64,000 bases of DNA, taken from Flavobacteriales bacterium. GTDB taxonomy: Bacteria; Bacteroidota; Bacteroidia; Flavobacteriales_F; PHOS-HE28. This document shows positions 1 to 7,171 of this stretch, one piece after another. The translations under genes were made by a program, and so were the position numbers. The notes below the pieces were generated by a model that saw only the letters and a list, made by a program, of their open reading frames with translations, was not told the DNA's origin and ran no database searches. Where the stretch lies: contig JAHBUK010000002.1 in NCBI GenBank assembly GCA_019638115.1, positions 627,867 to 691,866 of the forward strand, in the 5' to 3' direction. Positions within the stretch are counted from its first letter, which is position 1. Each line of letters opens with the position of its first letter.

Positions 1-511
1 TGTGGTGGCCGTTGTTGGTCACCCACTCCTCGGTGACCTCGTAGACGTTGTTGTCCTGGGGTGGCGGACCTCCCGGTCCGCCCGAAACACTGCCCGTGCC
101 GGTGCTCTGTGGCGGAGCGGGAGCTCCGCCTACCGAAGGCCCGCCGATCGCCGAATAATCGATGAGCACCAGGTCGCGCTCGCGGTTCTCTTCGTGGTCG
201 AAGAACTTGCCCTGGTTGCGCAGGTGGGCCAGGAACTCGCGGTTGCCGTAGATGTCCGCGTGCAGGTGGCGCAGCTTGCCGGGCAGGGCGCCGGGGGCAT
301 CAGTGTAGCGTGGGTTGAAGCGCCGCACTTGGGCGTGCAGCAGCTCGTCGAAGAAGAGCGAAGCGTTGCGCGCCCGTTCACTGCCCTGTGCAGCGGCATC
401 GAAACCCCGGCGCCGCTCCGCTTCCTCGCGCGGCACCACGGCCCAGCCCAGCTCCTGCGCATAGGCCAGGATGCGCGCTTGTACGGTCTTGTGTTCGCCG
501 GGGGTGGGCAT
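1..511 (-). CDS. hsdR: Type I restriction enzyme R subunit, N-terminal part (cut by window edge)
   Basis: This is the first 170 codons of the restriction (motor/nuclease) subunit of a type I restriction-modification complex; the rest lies beyond position 1. The N-terminal stretch with TVQARILAYAQELGW, then HEENRERDLVLIDY, then NVYEVTEEW matches the usual start of the HsdR N-terminal domain. The nuclease and helicase motifs are not in the window. Its ATG shares one base with the stop of the upstream ATPase gene (TAATG), so translation is probably coupled. Residues about 123-151, where relatives have a short linker, are a Gly/Pro-rich insert made by a palindromic DNA element. The identification comes from family recognition and operon position. 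Confidence 0.85.
   Translation of the reverse strand, partial: MPTPGEHKTVQARILAYAQELGWAVVPREEAERRRGFDAAAQGSERARNASLFFDELLHAQVRRFNPRYTDAPGALPGKLRHLHADIYGNREFLAHLRNQGKFFDHEENRERDLVLIDYSAIGGPSVGGAPAPPQSTGTGSVSGGPGGPPPQDNNVYEVTEEWVTNNGHH
63..136. repeat. In-frame palindromic element inside hsdR
   Basis: Two hairpins with 8-bp perfect arms and 4-base loops: GGCGGACC/GGTCCGCC (63-82, loop TCCC) and GGCGGAGC/GCTCCGCC (111-130, loop GGGA), separated by 28 bases and followed by TACCGA. The second hairpin differs from the first by a paired change that keeps base pairing. The same architecture and the same TACCGA flank occur in hsdM. The insert keeps the hsdR frame open and translates as a Gly/Pro-rich linker. 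Confidence 0.8.
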
Positions 512-3144
512 TAAGCCTTGGCTTTAGCAGCTTTTGCAGCCTTAATCAACTTACGTCGATTCATCGTGGCTTCAACCAATGCCTTCAGCGAAGCAATATC
601 ATTCGCAAGTTCCGCAGGTGTGGGCACCGGCGCCGCTTTAGCCGAGGAAGGATCGTGTGCTGATACTACATCACTGCTACGGGAGTGCAGCTTGTCGATC
701 ATCTCGTATTCACGTTGGTCAAAGCCGACAACTTCTTCGAGAGCATCAACCCGGATCCAATCTCTATAGCGTTTCACTGCCCCATTGAAGACAACATCCT
801 GAATCACACGCTCAAGAGTTGCCCGTAATCCATCGTAAGCGCTCCGCATGTTGCGGATATCCTCTTCTCCAGGATAGGCAGGCCATGCCTTTGCCAGTTT
901 CGTCTGTGTCTTCTCTAGCTTGTCAATGCGCTCTTTGTAGCCTTGATGGTCCCAAGGCAAACCGCTCATTACATTGCCAGGGGTAGAGTTGAGCCATTGC
1001 AAATGGCTGCTGTTGCTTGGGATTCCGGCTGCCTCAATCTCGTCAGACAGTTGACCAAGGAATGAAGTGTCATGCGTGAAAACTATTACTTGCCTCTTCC
1101 TAGCCTCTTCAACTAAGCGCCTTGCGACGTCGCGTCTTTTCCAATGATCCAGAGACGACACGGGGTCGTCAAACACGATACCACAGGTATGGTTGGCCAA
1201 TGACAATTCCGCAAAGAAAGACGCCAGTGCTATCGATCTCTGTTCACCCTCGCTCAGTATCTCATCGAGCTTCTTTGCCGTTGGCATGTCGAGTACAAGT
1301 TGAAGAAGCATCTTTCCCCTATCATTCCTCTCCTTGAGCTTGGTCCTTATGTGTGTCACATTCAACTTGACCAGTTCCGCATCAAGTGCGTCCTTGAGGT
1401 CTTTAGACACAGCGGAACTTGCAAGCTCTTTGGCCTTGCGGGAAATCGCAGTAGTTCCCAGTCCCGACTTTGCATCCTCAAGTAACTTGCGCGTCTTCAT
1501 TCGTTGCAGAAGATCAAGCATAGGCTGAAGGATCTGCGCTAAAGCCTGTCTACTTGCCAACTCATTGCGTTCCGCTTCTAGCATCTTCTTGGCCTCCGGA
1601 TCCGAAGCCTTCATGTATGAGCGCGCAAGAATCAGTTGGCGCGCCGCTAAGGACCGAATAGAAGACCTTGGGCAGGGCGCTAATGCAGGAACATTTAGCC
1701 AGGAATGCGTTTCTAGGGATGCAAGCATCCAATCCCTTCGCTTCACAATGCTCTCTGCCCAATTATCGATACTAATAGCCAAGGCCTCATCATGGGTGGC
1801 AATCTCCGCTCTCAGGGTAGCATCCATGCCAACGGACATACTGGCTGCTTCGATCTTACCCTTCGCAACATTTAATGCGTCAGCTGCCTCCTTCGCCTTC
1901 TTGGAAACATCATCCTTGACGTATTTCTCAAATCGCTTCAACCTGTCTGCGCCATCATTCAGAACTTCTTGGCACAGAGGGCACACGGCTGCATTATCCG
2001 TGTAGGGAAAGTCGTGTCCGTGATATGCCTGCTCCGTAGAGAATTTGCGCGCCGCTTCGAACAGTGCCTTCCAAACAGGCCCGCCTGTGCCAGGTAGTAG
2101 TTCCTCGCCTTTGGTCAATGCATTTGCCGCTGCTGCCTCAAGCTGGGTAGTCAGTACGACTGCATCATCCAATCCTTTCAGCTTTGCAATGCTATTCTCA
2201 TTCACCCATTTCTCGGGTTGTATCACTGCTTCACCGAGTGCTTTGAATCGCTGAACTGCAAGTGATAGCTCTTGCGATTTAGCTGCAGGGTCGACTTGAG
2301 CCAGTGCTGAGTTAAGCTGCGTCAATCGTAGTTTTTCGGCAGCGCTAAGTGTCCCGAGCTTAGTAATTGAGTCCTCAGGCGTCTCATGAGAAAGCCGAGC
2401 GAACAATGCGCCGACTTGTGTCGGGCCATTTAGTTGTTGGAAGGCATCCTTATTTGTGTTTACCGCTGTGATCGCAGCCTCCAGCTTCTGTGATAAGGCA
2501 GGTATTAACCTGTTCGCTAAAGCTTCCATGATCTCTAGACCCATCGGCAGATATGCGACCTCCTGCTCTTCGGTTAGGTAAGCACGCGCGCATTTAGCGT
2601 CAAAGACAGAAATTGCTGAAAGCCTGTCAGGCGATACGGCGTCGCGGCTCCATGTAAGGGAGACATCAGCACCATTCACTTCGATCACGATATTCGCTGT
2701 AGGCACCGCAGTCGCTCTAGCAGGATCGTTGGCATTCGGATGCACTGATTCGGTCTTGTCTCTGCTTCGACATGCACGCTTTAAAACACGGGCATATCCT
2801 GACTTTCCAGATCCATTGCCCCCATAGATGACAGTTATACCCGTTGTAGCAAAGGGCAAGACTTGATTAGCAGGGATACAGTTAACATCGTTGAGGTCCT
2901 TCATCTCCTTGAGAGCGATCACCTCACCAGCCTTAACCTGTACTGGTATATGTGTGGCGTTCAAAGGTTTGGCCATCAAGCCAGCGGGCACCGCAAATCC
3001 ATGGTTGCCAAGGAAGAGTGAATAGATCTCTTGCTCGTCAGTCGCATCCAACGTGCAGTCCTTTTCAAGCAATCGACGAAGGGCATCCCTTTGCCAATCA
3101 GGCAGGGTTTGACTCCAGGTGAGGATGTCATGTATTACTGCCAT
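511..3144 (-). CDS. ABC-type ATPase embedded in the hsd operon, PrrC/RloC-like
   Basis: An 877-residue Rad50/RloC-style ATPase. Walker A GGNGSGKS is at residues 108-115, a hook-like CPLC at 388-391 lies in a long helical region, the ABC signature LSEGEQRS is at 630-637, Walker B ends in FDDPVSSLD (658-666), and the switch histidine is H691 in VFTHD. The C-terminal 140 residues contain R774-x3-E778 followed by H820 and H830, the residue types of the PrrC/RloC anticodon-nuclease triad (Arg-Glu-His). The gene lies between hsdS and hsdR, 24 bases after hsdS and overlapping the hsdR start. It is visibly more AT-rich than hsdM, which suggests separate acquisition. The ATPase call is firm. Anticodon nuclease activity is inference; a DNA-damage or phage-sensing ATPase without that activity is the alternative. 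Confidence 0.75.
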   Translation of the reverse strand: MAVIHDILTWSQTLPDWQRDALRRLLEKDCTLDATDEQEIYSLFLGNHGFAVPAGLMAKPLNATHIPVQVKAGEVIALKEMKDLNDVNCIPANQVLPFATTGITVIYGGNGSGKSGYARVLKRACRSRDKTESVHPNANDPARATAVPTANIVIEVNGADVSLTWSRDAVSPDRLSAISVFDAKCARAYLTEEQEVAYLPMGLEIMEALANRLIPALSQKLEAAITAVNTNKDAFQQLNGPTQVGALFARLSHETPEDSITKLGTLSAAEKLRLTQLNSALAQVDPAAKSQELSLAVQRFKALGEAVIQPEKWVNENSIAKLKGLDDAVVLTTQLEAAAANALTKGEELLPGTGGPVWKALFEAARKFSTEQAYHGHDFPYTDNAAVCPLCQEVLNDGADRLKRFEKYVKDDVSKKAKEAADALNVAKGKIEAASMSVGMDATLRAEIATHDEALAISIDNWAESIVKRRDWMLASLETHSWLNVPALAPCPRSSIRSLAARQLILARSYMKASDPEAKKMLEAERNELASRQALAQILQPMLDLLQRMKTRKLLEDAKSGLGTTAISRKAKELASSAVSKDLKDALDAELVKLNVTHIRTKLKERNDRGKMLLQLVLDMPTAKKLDEILSEGEQRSIALASFFAELSLANHTCGIVFDDPVSSLDHWKRRDVARRLVEEARKRQVIVFTHDTSFLGQLSDEIEAAGIPSNSSHLQWLNSTPGNVMSGLPWDHQGYKERIDKLEKTQTKLAKAWPAYPGEEDIRNMRSAYDGLRATLERVIQDVVFNGAVKRYRDWIRVDALEEVVGFDQREYEMIDKLHSRSSDVVSAHDPSSAKAAPVPTPAELANDIASLKALVEATMNRRKLIKAAKAAKAKA

Positions 3145-3168: not shown

Positions 3169-4449
3169 TTATGATTCACCCACCCTCACCTTCCCCGTCA
3201 TCAGCTCATGAAGCAGGGTGCGGAAGAGGTCTTGGAGTGTTTTGGTCTTACGTTCGGCAACTTGCCGCTTGGTGCGCACTGCATCCAAAGCAAGCACCAT
3301 GTCCTTCTGTTCTTCGATCGAAGGCAGTGCTACTGCGAGCGTCTTGATCCTGCCTAAGGCAAGCTTCGGCTGTGCATTCTTCAACGTCTGTGCTTTGATC
3401 TCGTGCTGACAGCGGTCGCTATCGAGCCAGTACATCAGGTAACGGGGCTCGATGCGCTTCTTGTTACGGATCACGAGCCGGTTGGCATTCTCGGTCAGGT
3501 TGGCACCGTCCAATTCCTCAGGGATCATGCCCACAATGCCAATGCTACCTGCAACGGAGATGTAGACATCGTCCTTCTCAATGATGTACCGCTGGATACG
3601 GGGCTGGATATGAGTGGGCACGAACAACAGCTGCTGCGTTAGCACTGAGTTGTCTTCGAAGTCCGTGACCCGGATGTACGGATAGCCCGTATCCTCTGCC
3701 ACAAGTGCATTCCCCTTGGGCAGTCGCTTACCACTGCGCACATCGGCCAAGTCCTCAAGCTTCACCACCTCCCAACTCTCCGGCACCCTCCCGACCTCCG
3801 TTTCCTTGAGCGCTTCGCCGCGCAGCCCTTCGGTGAAGAGCTTCTGCATCAGGGCCTGCTTCAGCTCGGTGGTGGTGCGGATCAGGCGCTCCTGCTGCGC
3901 GATGGCCTCCTGCACCGTGCTGAGCACCTGGGCGATGCGCTGCTGTTCGGGGAGCGGGGGTAACGCGATCTGCAATTCGGCCAGCTTCGACCGCGACATG
4001 TTCGGGATGGTGGTCTTGTTGCCTCGCCCGATATAGAGGTTGCCCACATTGAAGGCATACCAGAACCAGAAAACCGCATACTGCGGGTCCACCATGCCAT
4101 CGAAGGCGCGCAGCCGGTGCAGGTGGTTCTGGATGTAGCAGCGCTCCACTTCACCCCGCCACATGGCCGTGCGGCCTACATCACCACCTTCACACAGCAA
4201 GAGGTCGCCGGGAAGCAATGTGTAGCGTGCTTCCTCGGCCGTGCTGAAGTGCATCTGATCCAGTTCCGCAAGCTCCAAGCGGTTCCAGAAGACATTCTTG
4301 GTGCGTAAAAAGGGTCGCTGATTATCTCCGATACGGTTGCGCTCGGAGACCTGCTTGCCTTGGATCAGGTCAAAGACAGAATCGACCCGGTCGATGGACC
4401 AGGTTTCCGGGTAGGTCCCGATCTCGGTGATGAGTTCTTCGACTTCCAT
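3169..4449 (-). CDS. hsdS: Type I restriction enzyme specificity subunit S
   Basis: The 426-residue protein sets the DNA target of the type I complex. It has the two-half layout of HsdS: target recognition domain 1 (about 10-165), a conserved helical spacer with the LPPLPEQQRIAQVL motif (about 165-215), target recognition domain 2 (about 225-375), and a second helical spacer starting LPSIEEQKDMVLALD near 380. It follows hsdM by three bases, so the methyltransferase subunits M and S are clearly one transcription unit. The recognition sequence cannot be predicted by eye. No frameshift was seen, so the subunit appears functional. Confidence 0.93.
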   Translation of the reverse strand: MEVEELITEIGTYPETWSIDRVDSVFDLIQGKQVSERNRIGDNQRPFLRTKNVFWNRLELAELDQMHFSTAEEARYTLLPGDLLLCEGGDVGRTAMWRGEVERCYIQNHLHRLRAFDGMVDPQYAVFWFWYAFNVGNLYIGRGNKTTIPNMSRSKLAELQIALPPLPEQQRIAQVLSTVQEAIAQQERLIRTTTELKQALMQKLFTEGLRGEALKETEVGRVPESWEVVKLEDLADVRSGKRLPKGNALVAEDTGYPYIRVTDFEDNSVLTQQLLFVPTHIQPRIQRYIIEKDDVYISVAGSIGIVGMIPEELDGANLTENANRLVIRNKKRIEPRYLMYWLDSDRCQHEIKAQTLKNAQPKLALGRIKTLAVALPSIEEQKDMVLALDAVRTKRQVAERKTKTLQDLFRTLLHELMTGKVRVGES

Positions 4450-4452
4450 GCG

Positions 4453-6426
4453 TCAGAACCCAAGTCCGGTTAGTATCCGCTTCAACTCCTCATCCGTCCG
4501 CTGGACCTCCACCTCAATGGCTTCCAGTTCCTGCACGATCTGCGGGATGGGGCGGTAGCTGGCGGCCTCGCCGGTGTGGATGTAGCGGCTGGGCGAGATG
4601 TTGTAGTCGTTCTTGGCGAGCTCCTCCACCGGTACGATGCGGCTGAGCTTCTCCACCTGCTGCCAGCCGAGCATGACCTCCGCAATGCGGTCGATGTGCG
4701 CGGGGGCGAGGAAGTTCTTGGGCTTGCCCTTCTCGAAGAGCTGGCCGGCGTTCACCAGCAGCACCTGGCCCTGGCGGGCTTTGGGCTTGGCGCGGCGCAG
4801 GAAGAGCACGATGCCCGGCGCGGTGGTGTTGTAGAAGAGGTTGTCAGGCAGGTAGAGCACGCTTTCCACCAGGTCGTTCTCCACGAACCAGCGGCGCACC
4901 TCGCGCTCCTTGCTGTTGCCATCGTTGCCGCTGCCGCGGCTGGCGGCGCCGGTATCGAGCACCACGGCGGCGCGGCCGGTGGGCTTGAGGCTGGCCAGGA
5001 TGTGCTGCGCCCAGCCCCAGTCCGCACTGGCCTTGCCGGGGAAGCCCGCGCCGGTGGGGAAGCGGTCCAGCTCGTCGTTGGCATAGTCCGCCTCGGTGAA
5101 CCAGTCCTGGTTCCACATGGGGTTGGCCACCACACGGTCGAAGGCCTTCAGCCGCCCGCGTTCGCGGAACTTGGGGTTCTTGAAGGTGTCGCCGATCTCG
5201 ATCTGGCCCTGCATGTCATGGATGATCATGTTCATGTTGGCCATGGCCCAGGTCTCGGGGACGTACTCCTGGCCATAAAGGCGCAGGGGAGCATAGGCGG
5301 GCGGACCTCCCGGTCCGCCACTATGCACGGGCGGACCGGGAGGTCCGCCTACCGACATGCGCCGTTCCATTTCGCTCTCGCACTTCACCAGCAGGCCGCC
5401 GCTGCCGCAGCAGGGGTCGTAGATCTCCATGCCGGGTTCGCACTCCAGCACGCGGGCCATGATGGTGCCCACCTCGCCGGGGGTGTAGAACTCGCCAGCG
5501 CTCTGCCCGCCGCCCTCGGCGAACTTGCGGATGAGGTACTCGTAGCTCTTGCCGATGATGTCGGCCTCCACATCGTTGAGGCCAAGGCGCTTGGTGCTGA
5601 TGGCCTCGATGAGGTTGCTGAGGCGGTCGTCCGCCAGGTCGCGCTGGCCGTGGGTGGTGGCGTTGAAGTCCACCCGGTCGATGATGCCCTGCAGCAGGGG
5701 GTTGGCCTTGGCGATGTCGCGCAGGTGGGTGGTGAGCTGCTCGCCGATCCGGTCGCTGAGGGTGCGCACCACGCTCCACACGGGCTGCTCGGGGTCGGCA
5801 GGCTGCAGGGGCAGGTAGAAGCGCACGAGCTTCTTATCGGCCTTCACGAGCTTGAAGGCCTTTTCGCGGCTGCCCACCTCGGCGGCGATGCGGTCCAGCT
5901 CATCATCGAACACGTCGCACAGGCGCTTGGTGAAGATGAGCGGGAGGATGTAGTCCTTGTACTTGGGGGCGTCCTTGGCGCCGCGGATGGAGCAGGCGGC
6001 ATCCCAGATCCAGGTTTCGAGGCTCTTGTCGGCCTGGGGCTTGGAGGCTTTGGGGCCTGAGGCTTTTCGGCCTTTAGGCTTGTCGGCCTCTAGGCCATTG
6101 CCCTGTGGCTTATCGGCCTTTGGCGGTCGGCCTGGGCCGCGCTTTGCCGTGGGGTAGGGAACCGGCGACGGCTGGGTCGCTGGCAGGCCATTGGCTTGTA
6201 GGCCTATGGGCTCAGCGACCACTTGGCCTCCGGCCACCAAGGAAATGCTCCCCCCACGCCCCCGGCCTTGGGCCACTTGGCCGCTGGCCACCAAGGCTTG
6301 CTTCACCTCATCATAGGTGACTTCATCCCAACCCAGGAGTTGGCGGGCCTTACCATTGCCAAGACTTCCGTGCTGCTCCAGCAGGGCCACCAGAGCCTCG
6401 GCCTGCTGTTCCATCGTCGCGTTCAT
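4453..6426 (-). CDS. hsdM: Type I restriction enzyme DNA methyltransferase subunit M
   Basis: N6-adenine methyltransferase subunit. Numbering here is from an upstream TTG at 6435; the ATG at 6426 (residue 4) is taken as the start. The HsdM core begins near LETWIWDAACSIRGAKD (139 on). The AdoMet motif DPCCGSGG is at 340-347 and the catalytic motif is NPMW (438-441) rather than the more usual NPPF/Y. Residues 1-137 are an unusual extension: a small helical/winged-helix-like part followed by a Lys/Pro/Gly-rich linker with an AT-hook-like KRGPGRPPK (98-106), whose DNA is built from GGCC-rich repeats. Residues about 361-383 are a Gly/Pro insert from a palindromic element. It is the first gene of the operon hsdM-hsdS-ATPase-hsdR. 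Confidence 0.93.
   Translation of the reverse strand: MNATMEQQAEALVALLEQHGSLGNGKARQLLGWDEVTYDEVKQALVASGQVAQGRGRGGSISLVAGGQVVAEPIGLQANGLPATQPSPVPYPTAKRGPGRPPKADKPQGNGLEADKPKGRKASGPKASKPQADKSLETWIWDAACSIRGAKDAPKYKDYILPLIFTKRLCDVFDDELDRIAAEVGSREKAFKLVKADKKLVRFYLPLQPADPEQPVWSVVRTLSDRIGEQLTTHLRDIAKANPLLQGIIDRVDFNATTHGQRDLADDRLSNLIEAISTKRLGLNDVEADIIGKSYEYLIRKFAEGGGQSAGEFYTPGEVGTIMARVLECEPGMEIYDPCCGSGGLLVKCESEMERRMSVGGPPGPPVHSGGPGGPPAYAPLRLYGQEYVPETWAMANMNMIIHDMQGQIEIGDTFKNPKFRERGRLKAFDRVVANPMWNQDWFTEADYANDELDRFPTGAGFPGKASADWGWAQHILASLKPTGRAAVVLDTGAASRGSGNDGNSKEREVRRWFVENDLVESVLYLPDNLFYNTTAPGIVLFLRRAKPKARQGQVLLVNAGQLFEKGKPKNFLAPAHIDRIAEVMLGWQQVEKLSRIVPVEELAKNDYNISPSRYIHTGEAASYRPIPQIVQELEAIEVEVQRTDEELKRILTGLGF
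5300..5355. repeat. In-frame palindromic element inside hsdM
   Basis: Two perfect hairpins, GGCGGACC/GGTCCGCC with loop TCCC (5300-5319) and the same arms with loop GGGA (5330-5349), separated by 10 bases and followed by TACCGA (5350-5355). The pair together forms a longer inverted repeat. It matches the hsdR element in arm sequence, loop sequence, order and right flank, with a shorter spacer. In the minus-strand frame it is read as Gly/Pro-rich residues just after the AdoMet motif region. Confidence 0.85.
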
Positions 6427-7171
6427 GTGGCTCAAGATAGGGGCTGCGTGCCGGGCGCAAAATATCCAGAGGCGCTTTCTTGGCTCTGGGTGTTTTGCAC
6501 GGGTAGGAGGGGGGAGTTTTCAACGATCGGGCTTGGTGGTGGGTGGGAGAGGCAAGACATAAGGCCTCAAGAGTCAAGTAAAAGTAGCAAGGGCAAGTGC
6601 CCAAAGGCCGGCAGGCCTGCGCGCAATGTTGAGCGGAGAGGGGGGCTGCTTGGTGCGTGCGGCTGCGCTGCAGATGGGGGCGGAGTGCGCCCTTATGTAA
6701 TATGTATAGGCTGCGCGGGCTCCCGCGGCGAGCGTAAGGCGGCTTCGTGCACGGGGCACGAGCGTTGCGGTGGGCGCTTTGGGGGCGCTCCCCTGCAAAT
6801 TGCTGAAAGCCATGCAGTCACCTGGTACCCCACAGGCAGTCATCAGGTACCCTACAGGTGATCACCACCGACCTCACAGGTGATCACCACCGACCCCACA
6901 GGTGATCACCACCGACCTCACAGGTGATCACCACCGACCCCACAGGTGATCACCACCGACCCCACAGGTGATCACTACCGACCCCACAGGTGATCACCAC
7001 CGACCTCACCGATGATCACCCGGTACCGTGCATCCGGCGGCTGATCCGGGGTCAGGATGTCGGGTGGCAAGCCCAGGCCCGGTAAGCCAAGGGCCAATGT
7101 TTGCTGCAGCAGGCCCCAAGCAGCGTTAACAGCTCCGTAAGCGTCATCTTCGTGTACCAACCCTTCACACC
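6427..7171. other. Intergenic region upstream of the restriction operon
   Basis: About 745 bases without a convincing gene. It must hold the hsdM promoter, but no clear TAnnTTTG element was found on the minus strand. It contains the 22-bp tandem array (6812-7020), a GC-rich inverted repeat GGGCGC/GGCGCTCCC near 6769-6790, and a short AT-rich patch near 6694-6709. An 80-codon minus-strand frame at 6975-7217 ends inside the array and is not convincing. Confidence 0.6.
6812..7020. repeat. 22-bp tandem array with GGTGATCACC palindromes
   Basis: Seven near-identical 22-bp units start at 6856, 6878, 6900, 6922, 6944, 6966 and 6988; each opens with AGGTGATCACC followed by ACCGACC(C/T)CAC. The core GGTGATCACC is a perfect 10-bp palindrome; the sixth unit has one change (CACTACC). 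Two degenerate units precede (6812 and 6834) that carry GGTACC instead, and a degenerate one follows at 7010 with GGTACC close behind. The period is near two turns of the helix, so the palindromes face the same side. Confidence 0.9.

Follow-up and report, generated by a model that had tools for sequence, protein, structure and literature searches.

The hsdM gene analysed here raises the question of what kind of mobile sequence has entered a methylase gene in frame, and where it came from. The gene (type I methylase subunit, 660 aa; 4453..6435, − strand) lies in the window, i.e. the whole stretch of 64,000 nucleotides under analysis, which corresponds to C2:627867-691866 of a 4.06 Mb genome (G000). 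Its first hairpin (5300..5319, + strand) has the sequence GGCGGACC-TCCC-GGTCCGCC and reads GGPGGPP in frame on the − strand; the second (5330..5349, − strand) is an inverted copy that reads GGPPGPP. The arms (5300-5307/5312-5319 and 5330-5337/5342-5349) are 8 bp long and 100% complementary, the loops TCCC and GGGA have 4 nt each, and the two 20-mers are exact reverse complements with a spacing of 10 nt. At the hairpin foot, TACCG at 5350..5354 reads CGGTA(G) on the − strand, an outward guide tetranucleotide GTAG. Two 8-bp hairpins with complementary loops and a TACCG(A) flank had been reported in a preliminary description of the window, and this anatomy was confirmed. The hairpins are an inverted REP pair (REPIN/BIME) with outward guides.

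The insertion leaves the protein readable. HsdM has an open frame with intact HsdM_N and N6_Mtase domains (Pfam), in agreement with the earlier view that a mobile palindrome is translated in frame and the protein retained. The REP pair encodes SVGGPPGPPVHSGGPGGPPAYAPL, about 19 residues (approximately 362-380) directly after motif I (DPCCGSGG). This fits the earlier estimate of some 20 residues as far as the encoded stretch is concerned, but the net gain over homologues without the pair is only 39 nt or 13 residues: the distance from DPxCGSGG to YAPL..GQE is 153 nt with and 114 nt without the REP pair. Two other repeats were also seen around the gene. Within the 5' part of hsdM, at 6035-6121, a degenerate repeat of 15 bp encodes a Lys/Gly-rich stretch whose length differs among relatives, and upstream of hsdM a 22-bp tandem repeat (ACCCCACAGGTGATCACCACCG) occupies 6849-7020 with 7.8 copies at 93%.

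With up to three mismatches the window held six hairpin matches against 0.91 expected, a number reached in none of 100 shuffles. A separate comparison of local hairpin counts with codon shuffles is a rough guide only. Three matches were exact (63-82, 5300-5319 and 5330-5349) and the one at 111-130 had two mismatches. An Rfam scan of the window gave no match. In the whole genome exact hairpins were found eight times per strand, all within C2:626813-633215 (reversed control 0). Up to two mismatches yielded one extra copy in the operon and elsewhere imperfect matches only (reversed control 8), and a looser pattern gave 14 matches, nine of them in the operon (control 8), while the five outside lacked the REP stem. 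All nine well-formed copies are intragenic and located in the hsd operon. The repeat does recur beyond the hsdM pair, but it is restricted to one operon and not scattered through the genome; the many dispersed, mainly intergenic copies that are usual for REPs are absent from it. The copies do have the form of REPs, a GC-rich hairpin of 20-40 nt with a GTAG-type tetranucleotide at the 5' foot (GGTAG directly before GCGGACC...). On the − strand CGGTAG precedes GCGGACC as the outer foot of the right-hand copies; left-hand feet are more degenerate (GGTTG, GGTGG, GGGTG).

A candidate for the origin of these REPs is found in the same operon. Downstream of hsdM lie hsdS (specificity subunit; 3169..4449, − strand), a gene of 877 aa assigned to AAA_13 by domain scan (511..3144, − strand) and the 5' part of hsdR (1..511, − strand), the whole of which spans L013:4548-8378 and encodes 1277 aa. 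With hsdM, hsdS and hsdR and the expected Pfam domains (N6_Mtase and HsdM_N; Methylase_S twice; HSDR_N, SWI2_SNF2, ResIII and T1R_D3-like) the operon is a type I restriction-modification system. AAA_13 is the ATPase family of PrrC/RloC-type proteins, so the 877-aa product could have an accessory role in defence within this operon. A Y1 transposase match at C2:626992-627228 falls within an open frame of 1281 codons, which is hsdR. It marks a RAYT (HUH/Y1 transposase, approximately 190 aa) at L013:6930-7535, about 330-940 bases to the left of window position 1 and beyond the view of the preliminary description, in frame between the nuclease and helicase domains of HsdR. Pfam Y1_Tnp scored above its cut-off, as did the NCBIfam hsdR model, and NCBIfam REP_Tyr_transpos reached 69-73 bits, just short of the required 80. 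Among solved structures, E. coli TnpA_REP (4er8, E 8e-5) was the best match to the RAYT part. Both catalytic motifs are intact, the HUH motif as NHVH (VVMPNHVHVLF) and the Tyr in DYIRNNP. An AlphaFold2 model of the RAYT from an alignment of two sequences only had a mean pLDDT of 48; its fold matches were all non-significant, with weak ISDra2 transposase matches near the top.

Inverted REP pairs stand on both sides of the RAYT, and likewise in the loci L037 and L038. In L013 the pairs are located at 6814/6862-6910, 7552/7597, 7930/7978 and 13167/13197, one site having three hairpins. Site 1 of hsdR, in the nuclease domain, consists of a hairpin at 63..82 (+ strand) and its partner at 111..130 (− strand), followed by TACCG at 131-135; the partner reads GGCGGAGC-TCCC-GCTCCGCC on the − strand, with both arms changed together. 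The preliminary description had likened the hsdM insertion to Rickettsia palindromic elements, and a coding repeat of that type with no relation to the RAYT would also produce a palindromic insertion translated in frame in a retained protein. However, Rickettsia palindromic elements, which we set apart by their description, occur across many Rickettsia genes and have no RAYT in the locus, whereas here a RAYT with the same flanking hairpins lies in the operon, the hairpins form inverted pairs with a GTAG-type guide, and copies are found in hsd genes only. Membership of the Rickettsia family is ruled out by the RAYT/REP link, and we regard an independent repeat of similar behaviour as very improbable.

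The RAYT has no reading frame of its own, for there is no stop at either junction with HsdR. In four genomes (G002, G625, G169 and G766) no in-frame ATG, GTG or TTG occurs in the 40 codons ahead of the RAYT start or in roughly the first 12 codons behind it, so that separate translation is unlikely there; in others isolated candidate start codons occur. Because the frame is open through both junctions and a nearby start codon is missing in several relatives, the full-length HsdR-RAYT chain is very probably the translated form. No intein family was among the Pfam or NCBIfam matches of HsdR.

Comparison with relatives revealed filled and empty sites. Two further species, G013 and G002 of the same genus, are filled at the same three sites with the RAYT in frame in HsdR, and a third (G003) has the hsdM pair. 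G007 (85% HsdM identity) and G047 (63%) are empty at all sites compared, including the site in hsdM, so alignment with relatives bears out an insertion. Net length changes between filled and empty sites are multiples of 3. The residues native to the empty RAYT site, WKHEEVGRLEAK and WKCEEIGNLEVK, mark the entry point of the element, and plasmid-borne homologues match in two pieces with the RAYT skipped. The insertions sit in linkers or variable loops, and the frame GGC GGx in nearly all REP copies of the HsdR lineage gives Gly/Pro-rich loops. Upstream of its empty-site hsdR, G007 carries the HsdR N-terminus once more in incomplete form (L072:12214-12483), with about 94% identity over 90 residues.

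The same HsdR site holds a RAYT in three genomes of family f84 (G537, G672 and G635), which belongs to another class of the phylum. HsdR site 1 is empty in G537 and G635, and the sequence of G672 is cut there. The REP stems covary between the lineages: GGCGGACC/GGTCCGCC in the genome under study correspond to GGCGGACA/TGTCCGCC and GGCGGGTT/AACCCGCC around the RAYT of f84. A joint change of both arms is expected if the folded strand matters. G537 has extra REPs elsewhere in HsdR, and its dispersed genomic copies are mostly intergenic. Two genes of G537 have REPs of the same family at their 5' ends, one hsdS-like (L170:2693-3769) and one for a RecD-like helicase (L171:766-2661).

The RAYT or a profile of eight rows served as query against the genus (45 genomes), Bacteroidia (395), the phylum (395), the class of G537 (98) and that of G456 (391), the sets being partly overlapping. 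Strong matches came in two kinds of frame, free-standing ones of mostly 190-340 aa and embedded ones of 800-1552 aa. Every strong embedded match was inspected. The Bacteroidota genomes searched contained 24 RAYTs embedded in frame, and all 24 hosts are defence DNA enzymes, in eight combinations of host and site. Two sites are in HsdR, one shared by G000, G013, G002, G537, G672 and G635 (the last cut by the contig end at 468 aa), the other in the helicase part in G169. Type IIG enzymes have a site before methylase motif I (G181, G312, G646, G965, G850, G845, G785, G805, G827 and G998, of which G805 and G827 are near-identical) and one after motif I (G843 and G766). The remaining hosts are HmaB with three sites (G625 and G728; G456; G807) and PglXI of BREX with one (G692). 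Hosts were confirmed by family and PADLOC scans, those of G013, G002, G672, G635, G312, G850 and G827 being assigned by similarity to scanned relatives. The HUH motif is kept in all 24 embedded RAYTs and the catalytic Tyr in 23; the exception is the type IIG RAYT of G646 (L156), which has His at this position (IRKHIRENP).

Assuming that defence genes make up at most 5% of genes, the chance that eight independent combinations all fall into them is about 4e-11, a figure that serves as a guide only since the combinations depend on one another to some extent. The search itself did not dictate the host class, because the query was devoid of host sequence, although the profile included embedded RAYTs and therefore favours their relatives. 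Three matches were placed outside the count: a RAYT broken by TAA in G803, one in a frame of 339 aa near the frame end in G817, and a fragment of 55 residues (E 5.6e-4) in a frame of 703 aa (G034:C74). The broken RAYT of G803 is on a short contig (C9, L206). In the own genus, which is GC-rich, long frames of 344-574 aa at RAYTs were rejected as spurious, as the RAYT was at or near the frame end and the extra sequence, judged by eye, was unlike conserved protein. Among viral contigs none of 14 RAYT pattern matches was confirmed, and on plasmids the RAYT search gave weak free-standing RAYTs only.

Most of these genomes are metagenome assemblies, and a transposase could have been joined to an unrelated gene during assembly or annotation. 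Yet the same sites are filled in several independent genomes with both flanks in frame, several of the contigs are long (2.65 Mb in G785, 2.40 Mb in G843, a single contig in G456 and 0.88 Mb for C2 of G000), and two public records of Flavobacteriales MAGs carry the embedded RAYT (JAIOIH010000031.1, G013; JAHDVX010000002.1, G002). We consider an artefact highly implausible.

Embedded RAYTs are under purifying selection, which is usually stronger than that on the host. The omega of the RAYT was 0.05-0.11 in the trio of the own genus and 0.05-0.19 elsewhere, that of host parts approximately 0.06-0.31. The pair G181/G965 shows 90% identity in the RAYT versus 72% in the host and an omega of 0.05 versus 0.31. 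The order is reversed in G537/G672, where constraint on the RAYT is not stronger than on the host, and constraint is equal in G537/G635. An old insertion that was tolerated in a flexible linker, with RAYT and REPs now inactive, would account for the location in linkers or variable loops and for homologues that lack it. However, omega values far below 1, the HUH motif in all and the Tyr in all but one of the RAYTs, REP stems kept by paired changes and a frame kept everywhere are at odds with decay, and such a relic appears improbable to us.

The RAYT and its host do not seem to share one history throughout. The dS of the RAYT exceeds that of the host in G000/G013, G000/G002 and G181/G965, with 1.07 versus 0.35 for the flanking HsdR in G000/G002, and at the one site shared by G625 and G728 the RAYT is 71% identical versus 88% for the host. 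The guide foot is mostly GGAAG in G013 (GAAG; TTCC on the + strand) and GAAG is also the main form in G002, and these guide differences match the divergence of the RAYTs. The excess of dS together with the matching guides suggests that the RAYT and its REPs have in part evolved apart from the host allele; this may reflect either replacement of the element or recombination in the flanks. In the RAYT tree embedded copies occur in several places, which takes a minimum of three to four state changes. A supported clade of embedded RAYTs (95/88) spans type IIG, HmaB and PglXI hosts, which points to movement between defence genes, and another (100/99) keeps the fused frame across two classes.

Two views of the RAYT must be weighed on these data. 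Under domestication it would function in the restriction enzyme as a HUH-nuclease module, with the REPs in hsdR and hsdM as its own putative binding sites. The module might serve feedback control of the operon or process single-stranded DNA from translocation and cleavage. In general terms RAYTs would then repeatedly have become translated domains of anti-phage enzymes, the nuclease aiding defence or controlling the operon via REPs that are substrate and linker at once. The exclusive association with defence enzymes, the fused frame kept across two classes, the restriction of REPs to hsd genes in G000 and the stronger constraint on the RAYT in several pairs all speak for it. On the other hand close systems do without the RAYT (G007, G047 and the plasmid homologues), host genes and sites differ widely, and G646 has lost the Tyr. 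We rate domestication, for the hsd operon as well as in its general form, as a serious but rather unlikely option.

We favor selfish hitchhiking over domestication: a REPtron, i.e. RAYT plus REPs, became part of the type I restriction-modification operon and is probably a selfish element that resides in frame in defence genes. The RAYT read in frame inside HsdR, the REP pairs on both of its sides and the further pairs in the HsdR nuclease domain and in HsdM would be its parts. As judged from its family, the RAYT would act on REP single strands and spread REPs locally. The palindromes, encoding Gly/Pro linkers in the frame found in G000 (GGPPGPP...GGPGGPP), would add a flexible loop or tether a folded transposase and leave the host enzyme unbroken. 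Survival of the REPtron in defence genes may rest on two things: its repeats do no harm as linkers, and such genes are retained and exchanged between species, carrying the RAYT along horizontally. Several points weigh against a selfish REPtron. G000 has few REPs, all of them in the operon, which differs from the usual REP population; recombination in the flanks could by itself produce the dS excess; the strong conservation of the RAYT is equally compatible with a host function; and the pairs G537/G672 and G537/G635 lack the stronger constraint on the RAYT.

The layout is that of known REPtrons, in which a HUH/Y1 transposase (RAYT, TnpA_REP) accompanies REPs, BIMEs or REPINs as inverted flanking hairpins with a GTAG-type guide (PMC2817692, PMC3116915, PMC6006769). 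By motifs the nearest match for the embedded RAYT is subclass 2.4 (RAYT group 4), whose RAYT genes are themselves known to receive in-frame REPs (PMC6006769). The difference is that the RAYT described here forms a domain of HsdR or of another defence enzyme instead of a separate gene, with few REPs limited to the host operon in G000. Proteins of the RAYT family that were longer than expected were left out as fusions or errors of annotation (PMC6006769), which may explain the lack of earlier descriptions, and similar fusions may more widely have escaped notice through length filters and automatic annotation. Intragenic GTAG REPs and REP dimers are known to be translated in frame within working DNA-metabolism genes such as uvrA, dnaE2 and recB, where they add 20-30 residues (PMC3733652), but no embedded transposase was described and the word 'restriction' is absent from that text. 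In-frame intragenic REPs are thus known already, whereas our search of open-access full texts gave no description of a RAYT lodged within restriction-modification, Hma or BREX enzymes, and nothing pertinent on RAYT or transposase domains within restriction genes.

Inteins and homing endonucleases resemble the embedded RAYT in being in-frame, probably selfish nucleases in genes of DNA metabolism, with empty and filled alleles side by side. Here, however, a splicing domain is missing from the Pfam and NCBIfam matches, the insert stays in the protein, and a HUH transposase takes the place of the homing endonuclease. The nearest functional analogue is the ShiLan element, a non-splicing, stop-free insertion in a phage DNA methylase gene that is thought to persist by looping out of the enzyme (PMC11855218). 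Its HNH endonuclease is out of frame, whereas the RAYT shares the frame of its host, and the linkers are encoded by the RAYT's own flanking REPs. If the selfish REPtron is the correct reading, a transposase lives in a working gene without splicing, with mobile sequence supplying the linkers. It has long been puzzling what RAYTs do and why they are retained. The defence hosts of all 24 embedded RAYTs connect this family with the way in which restriction-modification systems move and persist, and recurrence over eight host/site combinations makes this link testable.

Finally, free-standing RAYTs of the own genus (L079, L080 and others) are preceded by upstream frames with a different short repeat peptide, TGFQPV-like, which suggests that another REP family goes with them.
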